A DNA stretch of 64,000 nucleotides, from assembly GCA_022264855.1 (NCBI GenBank), contig JABYQU010000070.1:80729-144728 (forward strand). The letters run 5' to 3'. The notes beneath the pieces were generated by a model. That model was not told the origin of the DNA. It searched no databases and saw only the letters and a program-made list of their open reading frames with translations. Position 1 is the stretch's first letter. Every line of letters starts with the position of its first letter. The translations under genes and the position numbers were made by a program. Below, in pieces: positions 28,142-39,503 of this stretch. The stretch comes from Lenzites betulinus (lineage: Eukaryota; Basidiomycota; Agaricomycetes; Polyporales; Polyporaceae).

Positions 28142-28768
28142 TCGCATATTAACGTTGAGAAATCAGCTACGGTACCTTGTTCCTCGTATATGCACATGTG
28201 TAGAAATGTTTCGTAATTATTTGTATACGTACGGACCCAGTACCAGAGATAGACATCATAATTGCATACGCCGCTACGTCACATTGCTTGTCAACTTCAC
28301 CAGAGCCTAAAGATTGCTATACTAGCCTTATGCGGACCGCTCATCATGCCCGACGTTCATGTAGCTCAGGCATCGAAACCACCGGTCCACAGCGGAGGGG
28401 GGAGGGCATCCGCAACATCCCCGCACCGCGTACCTGCGATGGAGGCGCAATATTGAGGTGTCCGGGCTGCTGAGCTACCGCACGGATAGACCGTCCGACG
28501 TTGCGCCATACGATCTGCGTCCCACAGCTAACTCGACACCGGCAGGATGCAGAACTGCGTGGGCGAGATGAGAGCGTCCGCGCAGGACCGACTCTGCACG
28601 ACGGCGCGGCGATACTTAGAACTCGTGGGCTATCCCGAAATGGCGCACTTGCGGGACAGCCCCCTCCGGAATGCTCCCCCGCACGCGGAGGATCCAACGT
28701 GGGTACAGTTGATCCTATATGTCGGCCTATCAACTCAGTTTGCTGACCTTTGAACGCTTCCCGCCCAG
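28142..28768. other. Intergenic; exons 1-2 of the following paralogue are missing here
   Basis: GC-rich stretch from about 28370 to 28720 unlike its AT-richer surroundings. No signal-peptide exon or QC..W exon could be found, although the next feature needs them. Confidence 0.4.
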
Positions 28769-29215
28769 CCTCGTACTTTTTGGTAAGTTGACCGTCCAAC
28801 CCTGTCTCGCCGTTTAGTTTACTGACAAGCCGCACCTCTCTTACAGGAGTGAGTCCCTCATAGCCTTGGAGACTCATAGCCATGTATCCTGATCTTTCTT
28901 GTAAATCTGCGGCATAGGTTCCAGCGTGACAACGAGGTCATTGAGTCGTTCGGCACTCTTGGCTCGAACGCCTTTAACTGGAACACCAATGTTCCCGCAG
29001 GTGCGTCATATAGTCTTGGTGCTACCACTACAGCTTTCTGCTGACGCTAGGAGCTCAGGCTCTGTGATCACGCTCGCACTCATCGACGCGATCCAGCAAT
29101 TTGTTCTAAGCGCACCGTTCACTGTCCTCCAGGGATGTGCGTTTCTCCCTCTTTCTGTGATGAAGGACTCAACGAGCTGATATCATTCATAGCGAGCAAC
29201 TGCACGCTCATATAA
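28769..29215 (+). pseudogene. 5'-truncated copy (SSP1) of the small secreted protein family
   Basis: Exons recognisable by comparison with the intact copies: a 14-nt microexon 28769-28782 (encodes SYFL), a 2-nt microexon GA 28847-28848, an 83-nt exon 28918-29000 (ends NWNTNVPA), a 78-nt exon 29059-29136 (SVITLALIDAIQQF...), and the last exon 29193-29215 ending SNCTLI and stop. All splice sites are canonical and the frame is open. No signal peptide or first conserved-Cys exon is found in the 600 bp upstream, so the copy lacks its 5' end. The adjacent GC-rich stretch may be an insertion that removed it. Confidence 0.7.
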
Positions 29216-30228
29216 GCTACCATCCTGCATCCAGGATCAAACGAATGCATATTACGGGGCGGGGGCGGTCGTCATTGACTTACAGAGTTCTGTAGACTTT
29301 CGAGTACCTGAAATTATTCCATATGTGGTCGCCACACAAACACATTCTATGTTCCCCACGACGCTCCGTCTAATTTGCGCATGCTAAGTACCAACGAATC
29401 GGTCGGGTTCATACTTCTACTGGTGAAGGACGCGAGACGCCACAGACGCGTCCCGCGCAGCGAGCGATGCTCATCGCACCCACGTGATCGTGTCAGATCG
29501 CGCCACTCGGTGCGTGCCACAAACCCGAGACACACGCACCGAAGTAATCTGGTGTACACTTTTGTACTGGCTATATGGATACCTCAGTGCTCAACCTCGC
29601 TGCATCATCTCCCAGCTGGAAGCGATGTAAAAGCTCCGTCCAAAGGCACCGAAAAGCCTCGACCGTCTCAATACAACTCATCTGAGGCCCTGTACACGTA
29701 CAATTCTGGGGCCCGGAAGCTTATTCCGATCAAGCATGCAGATAACGGCTTAAACCAGCCGATGTGAGTGCATTCTATGTATTCGCGCCTCGCCGGTGTC
29801 GCCTGGGAGTGCGTCAACTGTGCATCCCCACCGGGTTGATGTAGCCGCTGGGGCAGTGCCGTGAAGTAGAACTGTGAACGGTTTTGACTGCGATCTGGGC
29901 ACGGGGATGTCATGTGGTAGATACATACCAGTCCCTCCCGGTGTAGGCACCCTCTAGGCGTTACTGTGGCAGCGTTTGACAGGTCGCAGTCGGATTCATG
30001 CCGCAGTCGAATCTTCAGAATGGGACTGGGCCGCCCACGTTTGTTGTCTAGGTGGCGCCTCGCGCGGCCGGAACCCAGTACTCCTCTCTGTGGAGCCTGC
30101 TGAGCATCATAGAAAGGTACAAGTACCATCATCGTACGGGCCCGCCCACACCGGTTGATCCTTCTGCGTCAACCTCCATCGACGATTCTTTCGCATACGA
30201 CACCCACTCCCTCACTGACAGAAGCGAC
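29216..30228. other. Intergenic between family copies SSP1 and SSP2
   Basis: No gene seen. Short scattered frames only. Confidence 0.45.
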
Positions 30229-30990
30229 ATGCTTTCCCGAATCTTTAACCTCGCAGTAGCTATGGCGGCGATGGCCTCGTCCGTGTTTGCGCAAGAACCT
30301 CTTACCATAGATACCCCGTAAGCGGGGTTATCGCGTGTTTCTGTACCGCTTCTGACAGAACGTTTACAGAGCTATCGCAAGGCAATGCGAGCCCACGCTG
30401 ATTACCTGGCATGGTGGCACGGGTAAGTGTAATTGGTAGAATGCTTCGGAAACGGCGGTGTTACTCACTACTTTCTAATTGCGGCACGTAGGGCTCTTCT
30501 TCCTGGTGCGTCCCCGTGTATGTCATCTTTGTATGCCTAGCTAAACTAATCACGGCCACGTAACGTTACAGCGGTTAGTATGATAGTTCCCTAATTCGGG
30601 GTCGCGAAGTTATACATGCTTATTATTTATGCGTTCAGCGTCCTTGTGGATGGACAGCCGATTCAAGAGTTCGGGGGACTCCCTGCCGAGACACATAATC
30701 TCACCTGGCCAACGAACGTAAGGGAATGTGAGTACCAATCATTCTAACTCACACATGAATCATACTTCGAGTCCCCTCCTCCATGTGCATGCTGATAATG
30801 GCTTGGCTGGGTTTAGATACTATTGTCACATTATCCCTTGACGACGAAGCGAGAGAGGAAGCGAACTCGGCGCCGTTTGTTATTCAGCATGGCCGTACGT
30901 CTTCTTTCGCACACTAATGCAGGCATAACGGGGCTGACGGTGTGCTCGGGTGCGACCTCGGCAGTGGAAAACTGTACCCTCGCCAACTGA
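30229..30990 (+). CDS. Small secreted protein SSP2, intact 116-aa family member with 14-nt and 2-nt microexons
   Basis: Exons: 30229-30317, 30370-30422 (53 nt), 30492-30505 (14 nt), 30572-30573 (2 nt), 30639-30727 (89 nt), 30817-30894 (78 nt), 30965-30990. They sum to 351 nt, 117 codons with the stop. The signal peptide MLSRIFNLAVAMAAMASSVFA is followed by LTIDTP, then RQCEPTLITWHGG, a GLFFL microexon, a middle strand region, TIVTLSLDD and the terminal ENCTLAN. Two cysteines (QC and NC) could pair. The compact beta-strand pattern resembles the Kre9/Knh1 N-terminal-like secreted domain common in Agaricomycetes (resemblance by eye). Role unknown; cell-wall or extracellular location is inferred. 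Confidence 0.8.
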
Positions 30991-32829
30991 ATAGAAGCCT
31001 GGGAGATGAGAAGTGCGGTGATGTCCCTAATAATCTCCAATGATCCTTCCGCGGCACGGCGGTGTGGCAGGCGCTGCATAGATAAGTGTTCCTAGGACAG
31101 TCGTATTAGCATAGCACGGCCCTCCGGGCAGACCTGGACTACAAACAAAATATAAAAAAATACGATAGATCGTAATAGCACCGATGAGCGCTGAGCAGCA
31201 AGGCCTGCTACCTTAATGAAGCAAGTGATCCTCACAGAATGAGCTTGGGCTAAGAACTGCAGATGGTATACACGCTAGTGACCTCGCCGTGGGGAGCTCG
31301 AATGATCAACGTTCAGCGTTCAACTCGCCGGCCTGCATGACACCACTTAACATATGAGAGAAACGTGTAGTCTTCAACTGAAATATTATATGGAGATGAG
31401 AATGCCCAACACAGCGGGGCAAGGGCCGTAGACAACCCTGCTTCATCGATCATCGATCATCACCGGCACCATGTAGAGGGCGTGAAGTTCTGACAGAGCA
31501 GATGGACACATTCCATGAGATATAACCCAGTCGAACACGGAGAGCAATCAAACAGGTTGCAAGGTACACCATGATATACGTTGTATACGGCGCGATACGA
31601 GGGCATGTTAAACGTTGATTAAATCGTCATTAAACGTTGGTTGAATCGTCATTAAACATCGTTGAACGTCATTGTGGTATTAGTATGGCAAGGGAACAGA
31701 GTTGCTAGCGATACTCACAAAGAAGAAACCACATACCAAGGCTTTGCACCTGCGCGGAGCCCTCATCGGCATGCCGAGACACATCAAGAGCTATATCAGA
31801 GCCGTTGTGCAAACCGTTTAAGTGTTCATCAAGGATATAGAACCTACGTCTTGATAACTCCGCTGCCACAGACTGAGCACTCGATGGAGAGATGCGGGGC
31901 GCTACAAGTTCCGCGAGAGCGAGTTTCGAAGTTAAAACCATACCCAACCCGTCAAAACCGACACGAGGGGGGCTCGAAACAACGCAGGACAAATCACCAT
32001 GATATACTGCAACGATCGGTCAGAAATGGGCAGGCAGATAAAAGAGATGTGCGTACTCAACGGCTTCGATGACGGCCGAGAAAAGGCAGCGGATGACAGA
32101 GGCGGAAGATGCAGGATGGACGACGACATGGTGGTACTGAAAGAACTCAGCGAGACGTCCCCAAGGCGACTGGGATAAACATGAATAAGCTGCGCCACAA
32201 AGCGCTTAAGTCTGCGGGCAATCGCGAGAGGGAGTCACAGATGTTACTACACGTGGGGGTGACGTTACCGTCACTTGAGGCGTTATTTCTCCCCCTAAGA
32301 CCTGTTCTACTTCGTAGTCCAGGAATACGAACGAACAGGAAACCGTTTGATTAAATAGCTCGCATGGAATGCGATGTGAACTTCCCCATGATAGATCCGG
32401 AGTCGTGGCATAACTCCTCACACCGCAGACATACATACTCTTCCCGAGTGCTTGTAACACACTCCGTTTCTGTTGGAAGCCCAGAATGTGTACTGATACA
32501 TGCCCGTGTGAGAGCGGAAGACCGAAGTAGACTATAGGGAGGTACAGACCAGTGCCTTCTCGATGTCCAAATGCGGTGATCCTATTACGAAGCGAATGTT
32601 CGCAGTACGTCCGGGTAATAGACCTCGAACAAACCTGACGCGCCCTGAGGTATGCGTACTCGGGGTGCATCGGTTTGTTATTTGGGCATGCTCTTCTGCC
32701 GCTGACGAGGGGCCCTATAAAACTCGGACTATGAAGTCGCGATTCCTCAGCCTCAAAGCCCTGAGAACAGGTTCAGCACTCACATTGAAAGTTCTGTTCT
32801 CCACATCTGTACTATTCGTCTTTGACAAT
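30991..32829. other. Intergenic with a small tandem repeat; possible degraded family DNA
   Basis: No intact gene. A tandem array at 31608-31671 lies in its middle. A minus-strand frame at 31705-31992 weakly recalls the family's 78-nt exon but lacks matching splice signals. Confidence 0.4.
31608..31671. repeat. Three-copy 22-bp tandem repeat
   Basis: Copies at 31608-31629, 31630-31651 and 31652-31671 (20 bp), all starting TTAAAC and ending CGTCA. Confidence 0.85.
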
Positions 32830-33596
32830 ATGCACTTCGCCAAGTCTCTGGGTGTGGGATTGATCGCTGCTACTGTCGCCCTTGCTATCCCGTCCAATGA
32901 CTTGATCCTGATAAACACACCGTGAGTTACATGTCCCCCAGGATGAATGCGATATTTAGTGTTGATGTCGTACTAGGCCGCTCGTCTTCCAATGTGACAT
33001 CACTCAGATCGTGTGGGTAGGAGGTCAAGGTTAGCAGCCTCGTCGTTCATAGTAGAGCATGCTCGAGTGGACTTACCGATCACTATAACTTGATTGTAGA
33101 GCCATACGTCCTGGTAAGTGGTCTTTGATCGAACTGCGACCGACTCGGAGAACTCGCTGACCTGAGTCTCTTTCACACTCCTGTAGACGTAAGTTTAATC
33201 ATATTCCTGCACGAGAACATGTCTCCTCGTATGGGCTCACTGAGATGCGTTCACAGCGTTTTGAAGGATAACCGCATCAGGCAGTGGTTCTCCGACATTC
33301 CTCAGACCAACGCCAATCAGACCTTTTTTTCCTGGTTGACCAACATCCACCAAGGCACGTTTATAGTCTTCCTGAACTCAATGAGATTCTCTACGCGAAT
33401 TATGACTGATGTTCGGAGACTTGCAGGACAAACGGTCTCACTGCAGGTTTTCGACGCGCTGGGCCAGACGGCGCCGACCGGGAACTTCGTTGTCCAACCT
33501 GGTCGTAAGTCAATGCCGCCCTCTTGAACACGTCACCTTGCGAGACTGATGCACACTGCTTTTGTTAAAGCGAGCAACTGCAGTATGATCATCTAA
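32830..33596 (+). CDS. Small secreted protein SSP3, intact 120-aa family member
   Basis: Exons: 32830-32921, 32977-33029 (53), 33100-33113 (14), 33187-33188 (2, AC), 33257-33354 (98), 33427-33504 (78), 33571-33596 (26). Total 363 nt, 121 codons with stop. Signal peptide MHFAKSLGVGLIAATVALA, then LILINTP, FQCDITQIVWVGG, EPYVL, a 32-residue middle segment ending SWLTNIHQ, VSLQVFDALG and the C-terminus NCSMII. The donor after the 98-nt exon must be GC (GCACGT at 33355) to keep the phase shared by all copies. Same predicted secreted role as SSP2; function unknown. Confidence 0.75.
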
Positions 33597-34021
33597 GGGG
33601 GAACACGAACCACTGTGTGTATGATGGAAGATCGAAAGCAAATGCCTGACGTGACTGGGCGCCTGAACGCGGGAGGTTGCGAAGGTGTGACCACAAATAA
33701 CATATGCACGTCACGCGACCTTGAATAGCTAGTATCGCAGGATCGGTATTCCGACGAGTGGATGTACTCGAAAGGCTCTTCAGCTACTATCCAGCTTCCA
33801 AATGATAGTATAATCAGTACCTCCTGCGTTCCCGCAGTGCATCGGATCTTGAGTTGGCACTAGTAGTTTTTAAGAGCATGAGGACGAAATAGTACCACAG
33901 TGTTGATGAGCATTATCGCATAGCTAACATAGGATCTATCGAATGGAACGATGTCGCATCATAGAAGGACAACGACCCAAAGAAGTGACTAAAGCGGTTG
34001 ACTACATTCACAGCCGCGAGC
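33597..34021. other. Convergent 3' intergenic region between SSP3 and SSP4
   Basis: No gene seen. Orientation of the family switches from plus to minus here. Confidence 0.5.
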
Positions 34022-34715
34022 TCACAAGCACCCGGTTTGCGCTGTTTATGGTGTCAACTCATGATCACATATCGTTGCAAGATAAATATTGAACGCACTG
34101 CTCGGCTGGACAGTGTACGCCCCAGACGCGGCCTTGTCACCCACGGCGTCTTCGATCTCGAGCGTGATGACAGTGCCTACGAGAATAGATGGCATCAATG
34201 GCATGATTATGAGCTATACACCCAAGGAGGGTACACCGGCGAAACGAGCAACCCACCTGACGGGAGATTGTAATTCATATCGTAGAATTGGTCCTGGATG
34301 TCGTTGATGGTCTCGTGAGTCCCGTCAAACCTCCGGCTGGGATGTTCATTGTCAGTATCACAGTGGGGACACGATTTCACGCAATCTACTCACGTCTGTT
34401 ACACATCGATTTTGCAGGATATCGTGAGACGCAAGACCTGCAAGTTGAATAGACTATTCATACCAAGTCGAATGGCGCTGCCGATGAAATTTAGTCAGGA
34501 TTTGTAGATCGGTCAAGCTGAATAGGCACTCACCAACGCCACCCGTCCACTCGACGATACCGGTTTCGCATTGGCGAGCGTCGGTCCTGGGACAATGTTA
34601 GCTCCCATAGACCATACGCAGCACTGCAGACATACGGCGTCGAGATGACCAGAGGATCAGCAGCGAAAGCCGAGGCGGCGAGGGTAGCGATGAAAACAGA
34701 GAGAGAAAAGCGCAT
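34022..34715 (-). CDS. Small secreted protein SSP4, intact 108-aa family member
   Basis: Exons, coding order: 34715-34636, 34586-34534 (53), 34477-34464 (14), 34395-34394 (2, AC), 34336-34257 (80), 34176-34099 (78), 34041-34022. Sum 327 nt, 109 codons with stop. Signal peptide MRFSLSVFIATLAASAFA, then LVISTP, RQCETGIVEWTGG, APFDL, a middle segment ending NYNLPS, TVITLEIEDAVGD and the terminus TGCL. All introns are GT-AG and 50-80 nt apart from the junctions noted. First and last cysteines are conserved with SSP2 and SSP3. Confidence 0.75.
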
Positions 34716-35909
34716 CTTGTTTGAGGAGAGTCCGAGAGAAGGTTGCTGCAGGAATTGAGCCTCTCGAGTCTCTTCTTATACGAGTTGCGAGACATATCAT
34801 GGGCTCGGTAGGCGTTGCATATCGCCGGTCGCGGTGTGAGTACCCGTCTGGTGTTTAGGGTGCTCCAGCCAACCGTTCAATGAAGGAAGCTCCCGTCTGC
34901 AATGCGGCCTTTACGCCGATCGGCTCGGTACCACATGTTATTCGCCGTTATGTCTACGTCTTCCTTGAATGTTAGATCAGAGCGCAAGAGTGAACATGAG
35001 AAGGTCTGGCCGTATGAGGACGATTTGGATTCTTGTGATAGTCTGTATCGTACGGACGACCATCCGCAATGAACAGCGGGAAGTGAGCATGGTAAACAGG
35101 CTTCTTACTGACTTCAGGGCTCCGTTGGCCTGCACGCTCCGGAGCTTCTCCGGTGAATCGCTTGATTTAGGCGAACACGTCTGAAGACCGCAGTTCTGTG
35201 AGAAAGGGCAAGGATGCCCGCAAGTCACGGCGAAAGACCTATACACGCTTGTTGCCCGCGCGTGTGTTACGAGTACCTTCAATCGCGGGAAGAAATGAGT
35301 TAACGACCATCTCGGAACATATGAGACAGGTACTCACAGCGGTGGCGAAGATATTTGGACGTATCTGGACGCTGCGTCAAAATTGTTAGTCCCGCTACAC
35401 CTACTTGGCAGTCAATCCACCCCCCCAGAAACGCATCTAGTATTCGGGGTGCTCTTCACCACGGTCCGCTGTGACGTGGATTGTTCAGCGTATACAGCAG
35501 CGCTTTTGCTGTCAGAGGGTGATCAGTAGCGAATCGGTCAAGAAAGTCCCGACGTGAATCTCGATGCAACGCGCATTTGCACAGTACTTGCACGATGCCA
35601 AGCGACTAAGTGCCGGAAATCCGCCCGGTGGTAGCACGGGTGCCCGGGGACGGCAAAAAGAACGACGGCAACATGATCAGCGCAGCCCACCTCGGTCTCC
35701 GGCGAGATCTTATTGGCGACACGCCCAATGTCGATCGTGTAGTAAACCAGTGACATTTTTAACGTCTAAAGTTGAGTGGCGGAGACGAGTACTTCGGTTA
35801 TGTGTTGCTTTCATACAACAATCGGAACGTTATGCTACAGTTTTATCGCGTTCGATTCAAACTGGTTGCAAAGGGAACTTTAGCGTCGCACGCATCTCAC
35901 CCGTATGCA
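34716..35909. other. Intergenic between SSP4 and SSP5
   Basis: No supported gene. Contains the SSP4 promoter (minus strand) next to 34716. Confidence 0.45.
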
Positions 35910-36588
35910 CTACAGGCAGTCAGCTACAGACATGTCAACAATTCAAGCAGGACAGGGTTAGATACGGATGCACGCACGACCGGGGCGAATGGTGAAGACG
36001 GCGGTCTGTACAATGTTGCCGTCGGAATCTTTGAGCTCCACGAGAACATCCGTTCCTAAAGAGCGGTTCAGTCCCGTGTGGAGCATGCGGCGTACCTTCG
36101 GGGACGTCTACAGGCCATGCAAAACTCGTCCCGTTCACATCGAATGGTCCACTTGCCAGTGCGCCAGTCTGGAAATTGAGTACCCTATGTTGAAAAGATC
36201 GCATGTGAGAATGTGCAGACACTGCATCGCGATGTGATGATACTTACTCCTATTGTAACGCACGCACTATGGGGTCAAATCTTTACACCGGACACAATGA
36301 ACACTTACCAATTCGACCGGGACTGCGCCCCGACAGATAAGATCATAAATCACAAATCAAAACACCGTAGGGGTCACATACGGGCACAACCTTCCCATTC
36401 GATTACGGTGAAAGTGCATTGCCTTGGGGGAGCGCTGAAAGGCTTGTTCAGTACAAGGGACCGTGTCTTGTATCAGGCACCGACACCCGGGTTAAGCACA
36501 CGTACGGTGTATCGATGATGCACTGCGCAAGGGCTCTAGTTCCAGTGAAGACCGTGACGGCGAGGACAAACAGAGTAGAGAGCTGCAT
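35910..36588 (-). CDS. Small secreted protein SSP5, intact 110-aa family member with four cysteines
   Basis: Exons, coding order: 36588-36506, 36434-36382 (53), 36322-36309 (14), 36249-36248 (2, GA), 36184-36096 (89), 36055-35978 (78), 35923-35910. Sum 333 nt, 111 codons with stop. Signal peptide MQLSTLFVLAVTVFTGTRALA, then CIIDTP, RQCTFTVIEWEGC, PVEL, FQTGALASGPF...SFAWPVDVPE, VLVELKDSDGN, and the terminus DCL. Extra cysteines before I-D-T-P and at the end of exon 2 are shared only with SSP6, so these two are sister copies and may have a second disulfide. Confidence 0.75.
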
Positions 36589-37438
36589 GCTTCTTGTTGT
36601 ACGTCGGGGGGTACGTTATGAGCAATTGGCCAGGATGGTCGAGCACGTAGTAGATCCTGTGGGCTTTCGTTTTATGCGATTACGAGGCTGAAGTCAATCA
36701 AACGAATGACAGTTTCCTGATGTGACATAAGTCGGGTTCAGCGTCAAGAGGAACGTTCATATTCTCTGCAACGATTTTCTTACCATTTAGTAGGCCCAGA
36801 ACAACAGTCACCGCGGTAACCTTAGGAGAGCGCCGCTGTCCCGCGGGCTAGATGCTTGAGGCGCTGTGCTGCGGATGGTGGTGACGCATTTTGTTTCGGT
36901 GGCGCGTGAAAAGAACAACTTTGACAGATTACCGCGAGTTACTATCATAGTACACTGCGGATATATAGCAATTTATGGCGAGAAATGGTTGGAGCGGAGC
37001 TGCCAGAGACAGCCTGAGTAGAATTATGTGAGTTCACTGACACCAAGGCACAGCGTTGATCATCGCTCTGTCATCGCTGTAATGCGAGATATTGTCTACG
37101 GCATGGGGGACTGCTGTAGAATGGGCAATTGCATTTCCGGTGGCTGAAGCGGAAAGAATGTACTTACAAAGAGGAAGACCAGTGGAAGAGCGAGTTCAAG
37201 TTGGACTCGCAACTCGGCGCAGTATGGTAGCCTCGCGGCCAGTGAGCGCGAGGACCCCGGAGTGTCCGTCCTCGTGGTTTGAGCGCTTGAGCGCTAGCAA
37301 GGGCCAGTCGCGGACACGTGCCAGGCGTCGCGCGTTCCCCTCATTTCCGGAAACCCGTACCGCGCCGCACGCAGCCCATGCCCGAGCTGGACGGAACCGC
37401 GTAAACGATTGTCGTCCTCCTTTACGCGTGAGGCTAGT
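36589..37438. other. Intergenic upstream of SSP5
   Basis: No supported gene on either strand. Confidence 0.45.
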
Positions 37439-37610
37439 TTACGAGTCTAGGAGGCGCGCGATGCGGGGGGAACGTCGACGCGGACCACCGTGACATCCGC
37501 GGTCACCCCCGAAGGGGGCTGGGCGTGCGCCTCGCGTTGAACGTCGCCGAAGAGCTCCGAAGCAGTCTTCCCGCCGGTTCTGAGTTCCCGGAGGTTGACA
37601 AAATCCTAAC
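37439..37610 (-). pseudogene. Fragment of a MaoC/hydratase gene exon
   Basis: A minus-strand frame reading DFVNLRELRTGGKTASELFG matches, at protein and nucleotide level, the exon of the hydratase gene at 40493-42217 that reads [20 protein letters not shown] (near 41525-41460). An AG acceptor precedes both. The downstream sequence (QPPSGVTADVTVVRVDV, then stop) is unrelated, and no other hydratase exons are found nearby. It is best read as a relic of a duplicated gene; the intact paralogue lies 3 kb away. Confidence 0.5.
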
Positions 37611-37770
37611 CTGTTTATGCGATTGAGTCTACTTACCACTAGGTTGTAGTTCAGCTCACTCTCTCCCTCCCCGTGGGTGCCGCATTTCAGGTACTAAAGC
37701 CGAGGAGTTCATGATATATATATGGATACATTCTCCTTGAGCACTCAAACAACCCCACCCCAAACTCTGC

Positions 37771-38496
37771 TTACACCTCGAACCCCAGTGTCTCCCAGTC
37801 CTCATCGAAGCCGGAGATGTTCGCGATAAACTCGTATACCATCGACTGCGCATTGTGGATGAGCTCGCTCGGCAGCCACGACAAGTTGTCCTGCCATACG
37901 GTCTGGCCCCTGTCGATCGCGATCTGGAGGAGCTGATCCAGGTCCTGGACGTCGACGTGCTGTTTCTCTTGCTGGTCCTCGCGGTACGAATCACGGTGAT
38001 CCCGCCAGCCCTGCAGCTTGAGCAGGATGAGCGGGACGAGCGGCATCACGGGCAGCCCGTCGATCCACCTGAGGCGCCGCCGCGGGACGTCGGGAATGTC
38101 TAGCACGCCGGGGACGAGAATGTCGACCTTGCAGCTGCGCGGGTTCCCGCGCCGGCTCGGGCGGAGTCTGTACCACAGGACGCGGTAGTCCGCGTTCGGG
38201 TTGCGCGAGTCGACGAGGAAGAAGTCGTCGTCTTCGTCCACGAGGATCTGCTTGAGCTCCTCCTGGTCGTACTGGTCTGTGAGCACTATGAGATCGACGT
38301 CCTGTGGGTCACGATCAGTCAAGACCCTAATGTGGTCGTGAACAAAGGTGGGGCTTACGTTGGGCGTTCGCGATACTCCAAACAGGTTGCACGCGACACT
38401 GCCGAACAGGCAGGATCTTAGATTATACAAGGCGAATAATTCGACCACGCGCATGGAGGCAGCCCGGAGCTCCTGCACTGACGGGGGACGCGACAT
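37771..38496 (-). CDS. Nucleotidyltransferase-superfamily-like fungal protein
   Basis: The start at 38496 (MSRPPSVQELRAA) is preferred over an upstream open stretch. The core reads SCLFGSVACNLFG, then after a 57-nt in-frame intron (GTAAGC to CACAG) DVDLIVL, matching the GS...D-x-D active-site arrangement of minimal nucleotidyltransferases. A further conserved acidic site could be the D of KVDILVPG. The C-terminal half has a helical region (PLILLKLQGWRDH, then DVQDLDQLLQIA) resembling the accessory helices of such proteins. Substrate unknown. It lies inside the secreted-protein cluster, between SSP5 and SSP6. Confidence 0.62.
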   Translation of the reverse strand: MSRPPSVQELRAASMRVVELFALYNLRSCLFGSVACNLFGVSRTPNVSPTFVHDHIRVLTDRDPQDVDLIVLTDQYDQEELKQILVDEDDDFFLVDSRNPNADYRVLWYRLRPSRRGNPRSCKVDILVPGVLDIPDVPRRRLRWIDGLPVMPLVPLILLKLQGWRDHRDSYREDQQEKQHVDVQDLDQLLQIAIDRGQTVWQDNLSWLPSELIHNAQSMVYEFIANISGFDEDWETLGFEV

Positions 38497-38774
38497 GTTA
38501 GGGGTACAGGGCAAGGAAGGTAAACCGCGGGTATCTTGTTTCCCGAGCCTATGAACGTGCGCTAAATTTATACTTCTCAGACAACGCAGTAAGAACAATG
38601 CCAAAAGACGTAAAACAAAGTCGAAGGAGATCCACGCCTGCATGAAGCCATATAGTACTCGCGTTTTCTACACCACTCGTGCTGTCGGCCCACAAATCTG
38701 CTACATTCGAGCCACTGCCACCCCACGCGTAGGTCCTTTACCCAAGCATCTCTTTAGCATCCTCGTGTCGTTCT

Positions 38775-39503
38775 TTATGCCTCGAGACAATCAGTCGCTA
38801 GAAGGGACCAATCAGTGCGCGATCCTTCTAGAGAATTCGCAGACACATACAACCGTTCTGGATCGTGAAGATGGCAGACTGTGCGATATTGTTGTGGGCG
38901 TCGATAAGCTTGAGGGAGACGGGAGTATCTATCGCAAATCGCAACAATGAGCATGTGTAGGCATGATTCATGTTCCAATGGAAGAGGCCCACCTTCAGCG
39001 ACGCGAACGAGCCACGAAAACACGGTGCCAGCTACGATCGTGAACGGCCCGTCTGCACGCTCGCCAGTCTCAAAGTTGGATACGCTAGAACGGAGGACGT
39101 GTCAACAAGGGCTGCGAGTAATCTGTAAAGCGGCTAGTGCGCGACACTCACTGCTATACAATGTATACAACGTCACTGAGGATCAGGCGTCCCGGTGTGC
39201 GGTATACCCTAGGATGCTCACCAATGTGACCGGGGCTGTTTGAAGCGAGGCCTGTCAACATATATTTATGCATGGAGGGAGTGAGGCTTACACGCGCACT
39301 CCTGCCACTCCAACAAGGAAACTCCGCATTGCTGCGGGGGCACACTGTGGACATTCCACGAGGTCGCGAGGATCCTTCGTTGAGTGGTGAAAACTATCAA
39401 AAAGAGAGCAAGGGACCTACGGGGTGTTGATGGTGCAGCCCGCCTGGGCGAGGGTGCCCGTGAACAACGTGGTTGCGAGAATAGATGCGAGGAGGAGCTG
39501 AAT
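38775..39503 (-). pseudogene. Small secreted protein copy SSP6: complete exons but initiator ATG changed to ATT
   Basis: Exons, coding order: 39503-39421, 39344-39292 (53), 39235-39222 (14), 39153-39152 (2, CA), 39084-38993 (92), 38928-38851 (78), 38797-38775. Sum 345 nt and open throughout. The first codon aligned with ATG-CAG-CTC of SSP5 is ATT-CAG-CTC. The following residues form a normal signal peptide (LLLASILATTLFTGTLAQA) and CTINTP. No in-frame ATG lies upstream before a stop. A TATA-like ATATATAAATA lies about 60 bp upstream at about 39562. Splice sites and reading frame are unharmed, so loss is recent, or an upstream exon or non-AUG start is used. Four cysteines as in SSP5. Confidence 0.7.

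Follow-up and report, generated by a model that had tools for sequence, protein, structure and literature searches.

A predicted two-nucleotide exon adjoining a 14-nucleotide exon in a gene family of Lenzites betulinus

At least eleven copies of a gene family in Lenzites betulinus (Polyporaceae, Polyporales) appear to carry two adjoining constitutive microexons, one of 14 nucleotides (nt) and one of 2 nt, the second of which is likely joined into the mRNA by stepwise removal of both short introns that flank it; on the genomic sequence, we put the probability of this reading at about 0.93. Six of the copies, SSP1 to SSP6, lie between positions 28769 and 39503 of the window, i.e., the whole stretch of 64,000 nt from contig JABYQU010000070.1 that was analysed. 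The 2-nt exon had been proposed in the initial annotation of the window, and our results support it: the reading is the unique structure shared by ten copies, it keeps the frame, it fits relatives that carry one residue at the same place, and the residue that it predicts is present in two deposited proteins (P0001 and P0003), although the splicing itself is a prediction.

The small exons of all six window copies were exactly where the initial annotation had placed them. Each 14-nt exon has AG upstream and GT downstream on rechecking of the coordinates, and each is followed by an AG-NN-GT step, where NN stands for the two bases of the putative exon 4. The introns around NN measure 64/69, 66/65, 73/68, 68/57, 59/63 and 68/67 nt from SSP1 to SSP6, and the coding sums given earlier for SSP2 to SSP6 were reproduced (listed below). 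SSP2 to SSP6 form end-to-end models of seven coding exons with intron phases 2,1,0,2,1,1 and constant lengths of 53, 14, 2 and 78 nt for exons 2, 3, 4 and 6. SSP1 is a 5'-truncated remnant that begins at intron 2 and has no internal stop from exon 3 onward; it duplicates a complete copy on the same contig, SSP7. NN and the first base of exon 5 would form a single codon, hereafter the slot. The features of the six copies are as follows.

28769..28782, plus strand: SSP1 14-nt exon, AG before and GT after CCTCGTACTTTTTG, the same sequence as in SSP7; exons 1 and 2 absent
28847..28848, plus strand: SSP1 predicted 2-nt exon GA; slot codon GAG, Glu
28918..29215, plus strand: SSP1 later exons (28918-29000, 29059-29136, 29193-29215), open until the stop codon
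30229..30990, plus strand: SSP2 gene model, exons of 89, 53, 14, 2, 89, 78 and 26 nt, sum 351 nt
30492..30505, plus strand: SSP2 14-nt exon
30572..30573, plus strand: SSP2 predicted 2-nt exon CG; slot codon CGC, Arg
32830..33596, plus strand: SSP3 gene model, exons of 92, 53, 14, 2, 98, 78 and 26 nt, sum 363 nt
33100..33113, plus strand: SSP3 14-nt exon
33187..33188, plus strand: SSP3 predicted 2-nt exon AC; slot codon ACC, Thr54 of P0001
34022..34715, minus strand: SSP4 gene model, exons of 80, 53, 14, 2, 80, 78 and 20 nt, sum 327 nt
34464..34477, minus strand: SSP4 14-nt exon
34394..34395, minus strand: SSP4 predicted 2-nt exon AC; slot codon ACC, Thr
35910..36588, minus strand: SSP5 gene model, exons of 83, 53, 14, 2, 89, 78 and 14 nt, sum 333 nt
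36309..36322, minus strand: SSP5 14-nt exon
36248..36249, minus strand: SSP5 predicted 2-nt exon GA; slot codon GAG, Glu
38775..39503, minus strand: SSP6 gene model, exons of 83, 53, 14, 2, 92, 78 and 23 nt, sum 345 nt, no ATG
39222..39235, minus strand: SSP6 14-nt exon
39152..39153, minus strand: SSP6 predicted 2-nt exon CA; slot codon CAC, His

Searches of the same genome added five split copies outside the window, giving eleven on four contigs (C12, C17, C36 and C77, the last being the contig of the window). This total is a lower bound, as the genome searches score the best candidates only; the copies were gathered by family search and not by the presence of an AG-NN-GT step.

C77:60339-59630: SSP7, complete copy, NN = GA, slot Glu
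C36:268487-267441: GPI36, 212 residues, serine/threonine (Ser/Thr)-rich with a hydrophobic end, NN = GC, slot Ala
C12:34180-34904: C12a, NN = AC, slot Thr
C12:22573-21848: C12b, NN = AC, slot Thr
C17, from 24008: C17, NN = AA, slot Asn

The 14-nt and 2-nt pieces stand at the same phases in all five additional copies. Wherever exon 2 is present (ten copies), introns 1 to 6 follow the phases 2,1,0,2,1,1, and exons 3 and 4 measure 14 and 2 nt without exception (10/10); exons 2 and 6 are 53 and 78 nt long in eight copies and 56 and 81 nt in the C12 pair. The GT-AG intervals flanking the small exons span 52-75 nt, and AG-NN-GT between two introns of normal size and canonical ends is present in 11/11 copies. 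The slot codons differ among copies, encoding E, R, T, T, E, H, E, A, T, T and N in SSP1 to SSP6, SSP7, GPI36, C12a, C12b and C17, respectively, with the SSP1 codon read from the remnant. C12a and C12b (loci L065 and L066) are near-identical duplicates in opposite orientation, about 12 kb apart.

The 14 + 2 nt structure was then compared with other ways of splicing the same interval. We held the exon-2 end and the exon-5 start constant and enumerated the GT-AG readings between them that were in frame and stop-free, allowing zero to two tiny exons and introns of at least 35 nt, in the ten copies other than SSP1, which has no exon 2. The (14, 2) structure was the only enumerated reading common to 10/10 copies. 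Joining exon 2 directly to exon 5 failed in all ten, and no reading with a single intron, a lone tiny exon of any length, a retained intron or an acceptor within GTNAG suited every copy. A lone 16-nt exon was available in 7/10 copies only, at varying places and with different peptides, and C17 had no one-exon reading at all.

Omission of the 2 nt shifts the frame in 10/10 models. Seven of the nine distinct models (C12b behaves as C12a) then meet a stop between residues 52 and 71; SSP5 meets one at residue 106 of 110 and GPI36 at residue 108 of 212. The early stop initially predicted for SSP2 was confirmed, at residue 71 and not 116. In the deposited protein P0001, the slot is residue 54, within strand 52-57 of a predicted beta-sandwich (mean predicted local distance difference test score, pLDDT, 84.8), so the joined codon would sit in the middle of a beta-strand and a frameshift there would probably not be harmless.

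The same observations bear on whether the mRNA keeps anything of the interval. Recursive splicing at a 2-nt step had been offered in the initial annotation as the alternative to an exon. A zero-nucleotide recursive step does not fit, because the reading frame needs two more bases (AGGT in 0/11); consecutive removal of the two introns is still likely. An interval that is a single nested intron (stwintron) or a zero-nucleotide recursive site, leaving nothing in the mRNA, is suggested by two short introns lying nearly back to back and by the occurrence of stwintrons in fungi. We give this possibility next to no weight, since the frame breaks in every one of the ten models without the two bases, no AGGT lies 45 nt or more from both ends of any of the eleven intervals, and the slot residue is present in the deposited P0001 and P0003.

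Chance is a poor explanation of the shared AG-NN-GT step. In shuffled versions of the intervals from the 14-nt exon to exon 5 (121-145 nt), an AGNNGT flanked on either side by 45 nt or more arises with a probability of 0.08-0.25 per interval. The product over nine independent loci, with one taken from each near-identical pair, is 10^-7.4, and it falls to 10^-18.8 when a GTNAG donor is also required, a criterion picked after the data had been seen. Spacers of 0-30 nt were compared across the eleven loci as a control. With a GTNAG donor, a spacer of 2 nt was found in 11 loci, 19 nt in two, 22 and 24 nt in one each, and all others in none. With any GT, 2 nt was again found in 11 loci, 6 nt in 10, and every other spacer in at most three. 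The 6-nt peak (10/11) is not a competitor, as it is the same site read to the second GT of a GTNNGT donor.

Relatives that lack the split provide a length marker for the slot. Seven unsplit relatives in the same genome each carry exactly one slot residue (T, S, V, A, T, T and S) between a PPYxL-like motif and the following residues; in six the frame stays open over the entire domain, and the seventh, L067, appears to carry an intron further on. Deposited proteins agree in part. P0001 (C2E23DRAFT_851700) is identical to the SSP3 model over all 120 residues, and P0003 matches the SSP4 model through the slot until the last exon; the only GT/GC-AG path found for the slot peptides of both proteins is 14 + 2 nt. 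At 34022-34098, P0003 uses another last acceptor than the SSP4 model and loses the conserved final Cys. Among twelve short homologues from other sources, compared by eye, one slot residue is present in five, namely the Trametes proteins P0002, P0004 and P0005 together with P0051 and P0053.

Several observations weigh against the 14 + 2 nt structure. Every single copy has at least one other frame-keeping option, with middle exons 7-28 nt shorter or 26-47 nt longer or with other donors; the commonest of these private options, a GC donor one base into exon 3 and a 19-nt shortening of exon 5, occur in 6/10 and 5/10 copies, respectively, and none is found in 10/10. Five of the seven deposited L. 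betulinus proteins found for split copies (P0006, P0008, P0047, P0050 and P0056) use different junctions, P0056 and P0050 by including part of intron 4, and seven of the twelve short homologues lack a one-residue slot (P0007, P0048, P0049, P0052, P0054, P0055 and P0057). Without the 2 nt, SSP5 and GPI36 reach no stop inside exon 5. In 8/9 loci, a C or an A precedes the donor of intron 4, a weak exon-side context. Finally, with SSP1 truncated and SSP6 devoid of an ATG, some copies need not be working genes. The private options and the five divergent deposited proteins are also what would be expected if each copy used its own alternative splice sites to keep the frame and left the shared AG-NN-GT unused. 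We consider such copy-specific splicing very improbable: no option is common to the ten copies, the options delete or add residues at a conserved strand, P0006 additionally omits the conserved exon 2, the seven unsplit relatives agree on exactly one residue, and the shared step would have to be a coincidence across nine independent loci.

Short fungal introns are recognised as units, a mode known as intron definition. The spliceosome would be expected to define each of the two short introns separately, and the intron-3 acceptor and the intron-4 donor, being 2 nt apart, presumably cannot both be occupied. If the two sites cannot be bound together, the introns would be removed in turn, perhaps intron 3 first, as it is transcribed first. 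Splice-site strength does not reveal the order of removal, as the donors of introns 3 and 4 score like those of the remaining introns (Mann-Whitney p = 0.81 each). In mean acceptor score and in length, these two introns also fall near or inside the range of the others, and a YTNAY motif is present in 9/9 for both.

A refinement that overlaps with the constitutive 14 + 2 nt reading is that the 2-nt exon is real and regulated, with partial skipping yielding frameshifted mRNA as an off-switch. The frameshift on skipping in all ten models and the early stops in seven of the nine distinct ones would suit such a switch, and a regulated microexon has a precedent in Trichoderma Xlr2, in the part of that report considered here (PMC11121469). 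Regulation nevertheless seems unlikely, given that the donors at the step are no weaker than those of the other introns of these genes and that skipping in SSP5 would bring a stop only at residue 106 of 110. A cassette microexon that keeps the frame both when included and when skipped was rejected, because its length would have to be a multiple of three and here it is 2.

The family may extend well beyond the short window copies. GPI36 and most of its 38 deposited homologues, inspected by eye, appear to combine a domain of about 90 residues with a Ser/Thr-rich tail and a hydrophobic C-terminus, unlike the window copies, which stop just past the last Cys; a name reading "Ser/Thr-rich GPI-anchored", cut short, occurs in the UniRef titles of P0017 and P0028. 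The motif plus one slot residue is found in 19 of the 38 homologues, comprising 7/24 from Polyporales (P0009-P0032) versus 12/14 others (Fisher p = 0.0019), where intactness was judged by our own text pattern and the groups are, in addition, not equally close to the query. The Polyporales group consists of the first 24 listed and was assigned by genus, with taxonomy confirmed for Lenzites, Cerrena zonata, Ganoderma, Trametes, Lentinus, Fomes, Dichomitus and Earliella; Cubamyces and Cerioporus were counted on our assumption that they belong to the order. The other group includes three proteins without an organism name. The slot residues of intact homologues are V, A, V, A, S, S and T in Polyporales, and S in eleven and R in one of the others. 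The broken Polyporales models skip, or read into other sequence, at the slot junction itself, as would be expected if the split exists there too; this split in other species we infer from the proteins alone. The step may explain the failure of automatic annotation in a large fungal family.

The six intron phases common to GPI36 and the SSP copies point to a single split ancestor. A tree of 22 domains favours neither intron loss nor original absence of introns in the unsplit copies: 4/19 inner branches are well supported, and split and unsplit copies are mixed (two changes each, with one change in 0% of 200 bootstrap trees). As a guess, the intronless copies could derive from reverse transcription of spliced mRNA. 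SSP1 and SSP7 differ at 12/69 positions of intron 4, 0/64 of intron 3, 0/2 of the tiny exon and 1/83 of exon 5. We lean towards a broader view, in which the 14 + 2 nt pair would be ancient and fixed throughout a family of mushroom surface proteins, in Polyporales and perhaps in further Agaricomycetes; every mRNA of these genes would pass through an ordered two-step removal around two bases, and the pair would break a large share of the public gene models of the family.

Ultra-short exons as such are already known, and the comparisons that follow refer to the portions of the cited reports that were available. One of the closest cases is a 1-nt exon in Fusarium CYP621A P450 genes, which is the same G in all 24 genes and is backed by reads in two species (PMC12940212). 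Both systems involve a fungal gene with out-of-phase neighbouring exons, an intronless relative that serves as a length marker, deposited models that are mostly wrong at the site, and an interval about twice the length of a normal intron (139 nt in F. graminearum versus 121-145 nt in Lenzites) (PMC12940212). They differ in that the Fusarium exon is 1 nt long and belongs to orthologues of an ascomycete genus, whereas the Lenzites exon is 2 nt long, varies in sequence (GA, CG, AC, CA, GC, AA), has a 14-nt exon as its neighbour, recurs in a single basidiomycete genome in eleven copies or more, and is predicted from DNA. For Arabidopsis, Drosophila and human, the same report cites 2-5 bp exons, which fall in the same size class, and its citing sentence names no fungal family (PMC12940212). 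Predicted two-nucleotide exons were mentioned for Phlebia radiata (PMC6540522); in the portion available, this is a passing remark on predicted genes that names neither a gene in which such an exon is internal nor a family, and that reports no conservation. In Phanerochaete chrysosporium, P450 genes also form a multigene family of a white-rot basidiomycete with very short exons, the shortest being 6 bp (PMC1184071).

Plant APC11 and VPS55 contain 1-nt exons (PMC4674806, PMC8831610). Like the Lenzites exon, these are ultra-short, conserved and placed between introns; APC11 has intronless copies elsewhere and a proposed stepwise removal, and VPS55 has GTRAGT donors. The plant cases differ in their length of 1 nt and in their evidence, namely fusion constructs for APC11 and RNA-seq (PMC4674806, PMC8831610). 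The authors of the Arabidopsis work argue likewise that the introns are removed in turn, and they cite the 9-nt potato invertase exon, where the second intron leaves first (PMC4674806). Ascomycete stwintrons also consist of two short introns in near contact that are removed in order, but one intron lies inside the splice signal of the other and no base is retained, whereas the Lenzites step needs two bases. In the open-access literature searched (titles and abstract openings), we found no report of a 2-nt plus 14-nt exon pair kept in such a family, and wordings for 2-nt or two-nucleotide exons or microexons returned no paper; the Phlebia radiata remark is in a paper listed by another search. 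A 2-nt exon that adjoins a 14-nt one and is conserved across eleven or more copies within a basidiomycete family appears new, and it would rank among the smallest exons known in any organism.

If the genes are spliced as predicted, a 2-nt exon would have been retained through many duplications, in at least eleven natural copies that vary in NN and in donors and whose introns have diverged. Such copies would form a natural series for how the spliceosome treats, and in which order, two introns with sites that cannot be bound together.

Eleven proteins compared with Pfam had no match above the cut-off, and a fold search with the predicted model of P0001 returned generic immunoglobulin-like beta-sandwich matches (query TM about 0.36-0.54 among the matches listed), with no function indicated. 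Locus L026 (C98) looked related and was excluded for a different motif ahead of the strand; L070 and L071 (C21 and C47) and L012 (C53) were weak matches that were inspected and excluded from the family. The contig of the window also holds, some 45 kb to the left of it, an intronless relative (L005, L019; C77:34826-35092) with an open frame of 232 residues and, by eye, a probable membrane segment. The stretch shared by SSP1 and SSP7 covers 28701-29505; the SSP1 copy begins close to the donor of intron 2, and of the 19 differences between the two, intron 4 holds 12. Intron 5 of SSP3 (33355-33426) has GC-AG ends. At position 39503, SSP6 has ATT in place of the ATG of its paralogue SSP5, suggesting either a lost start or a non-AUG one.

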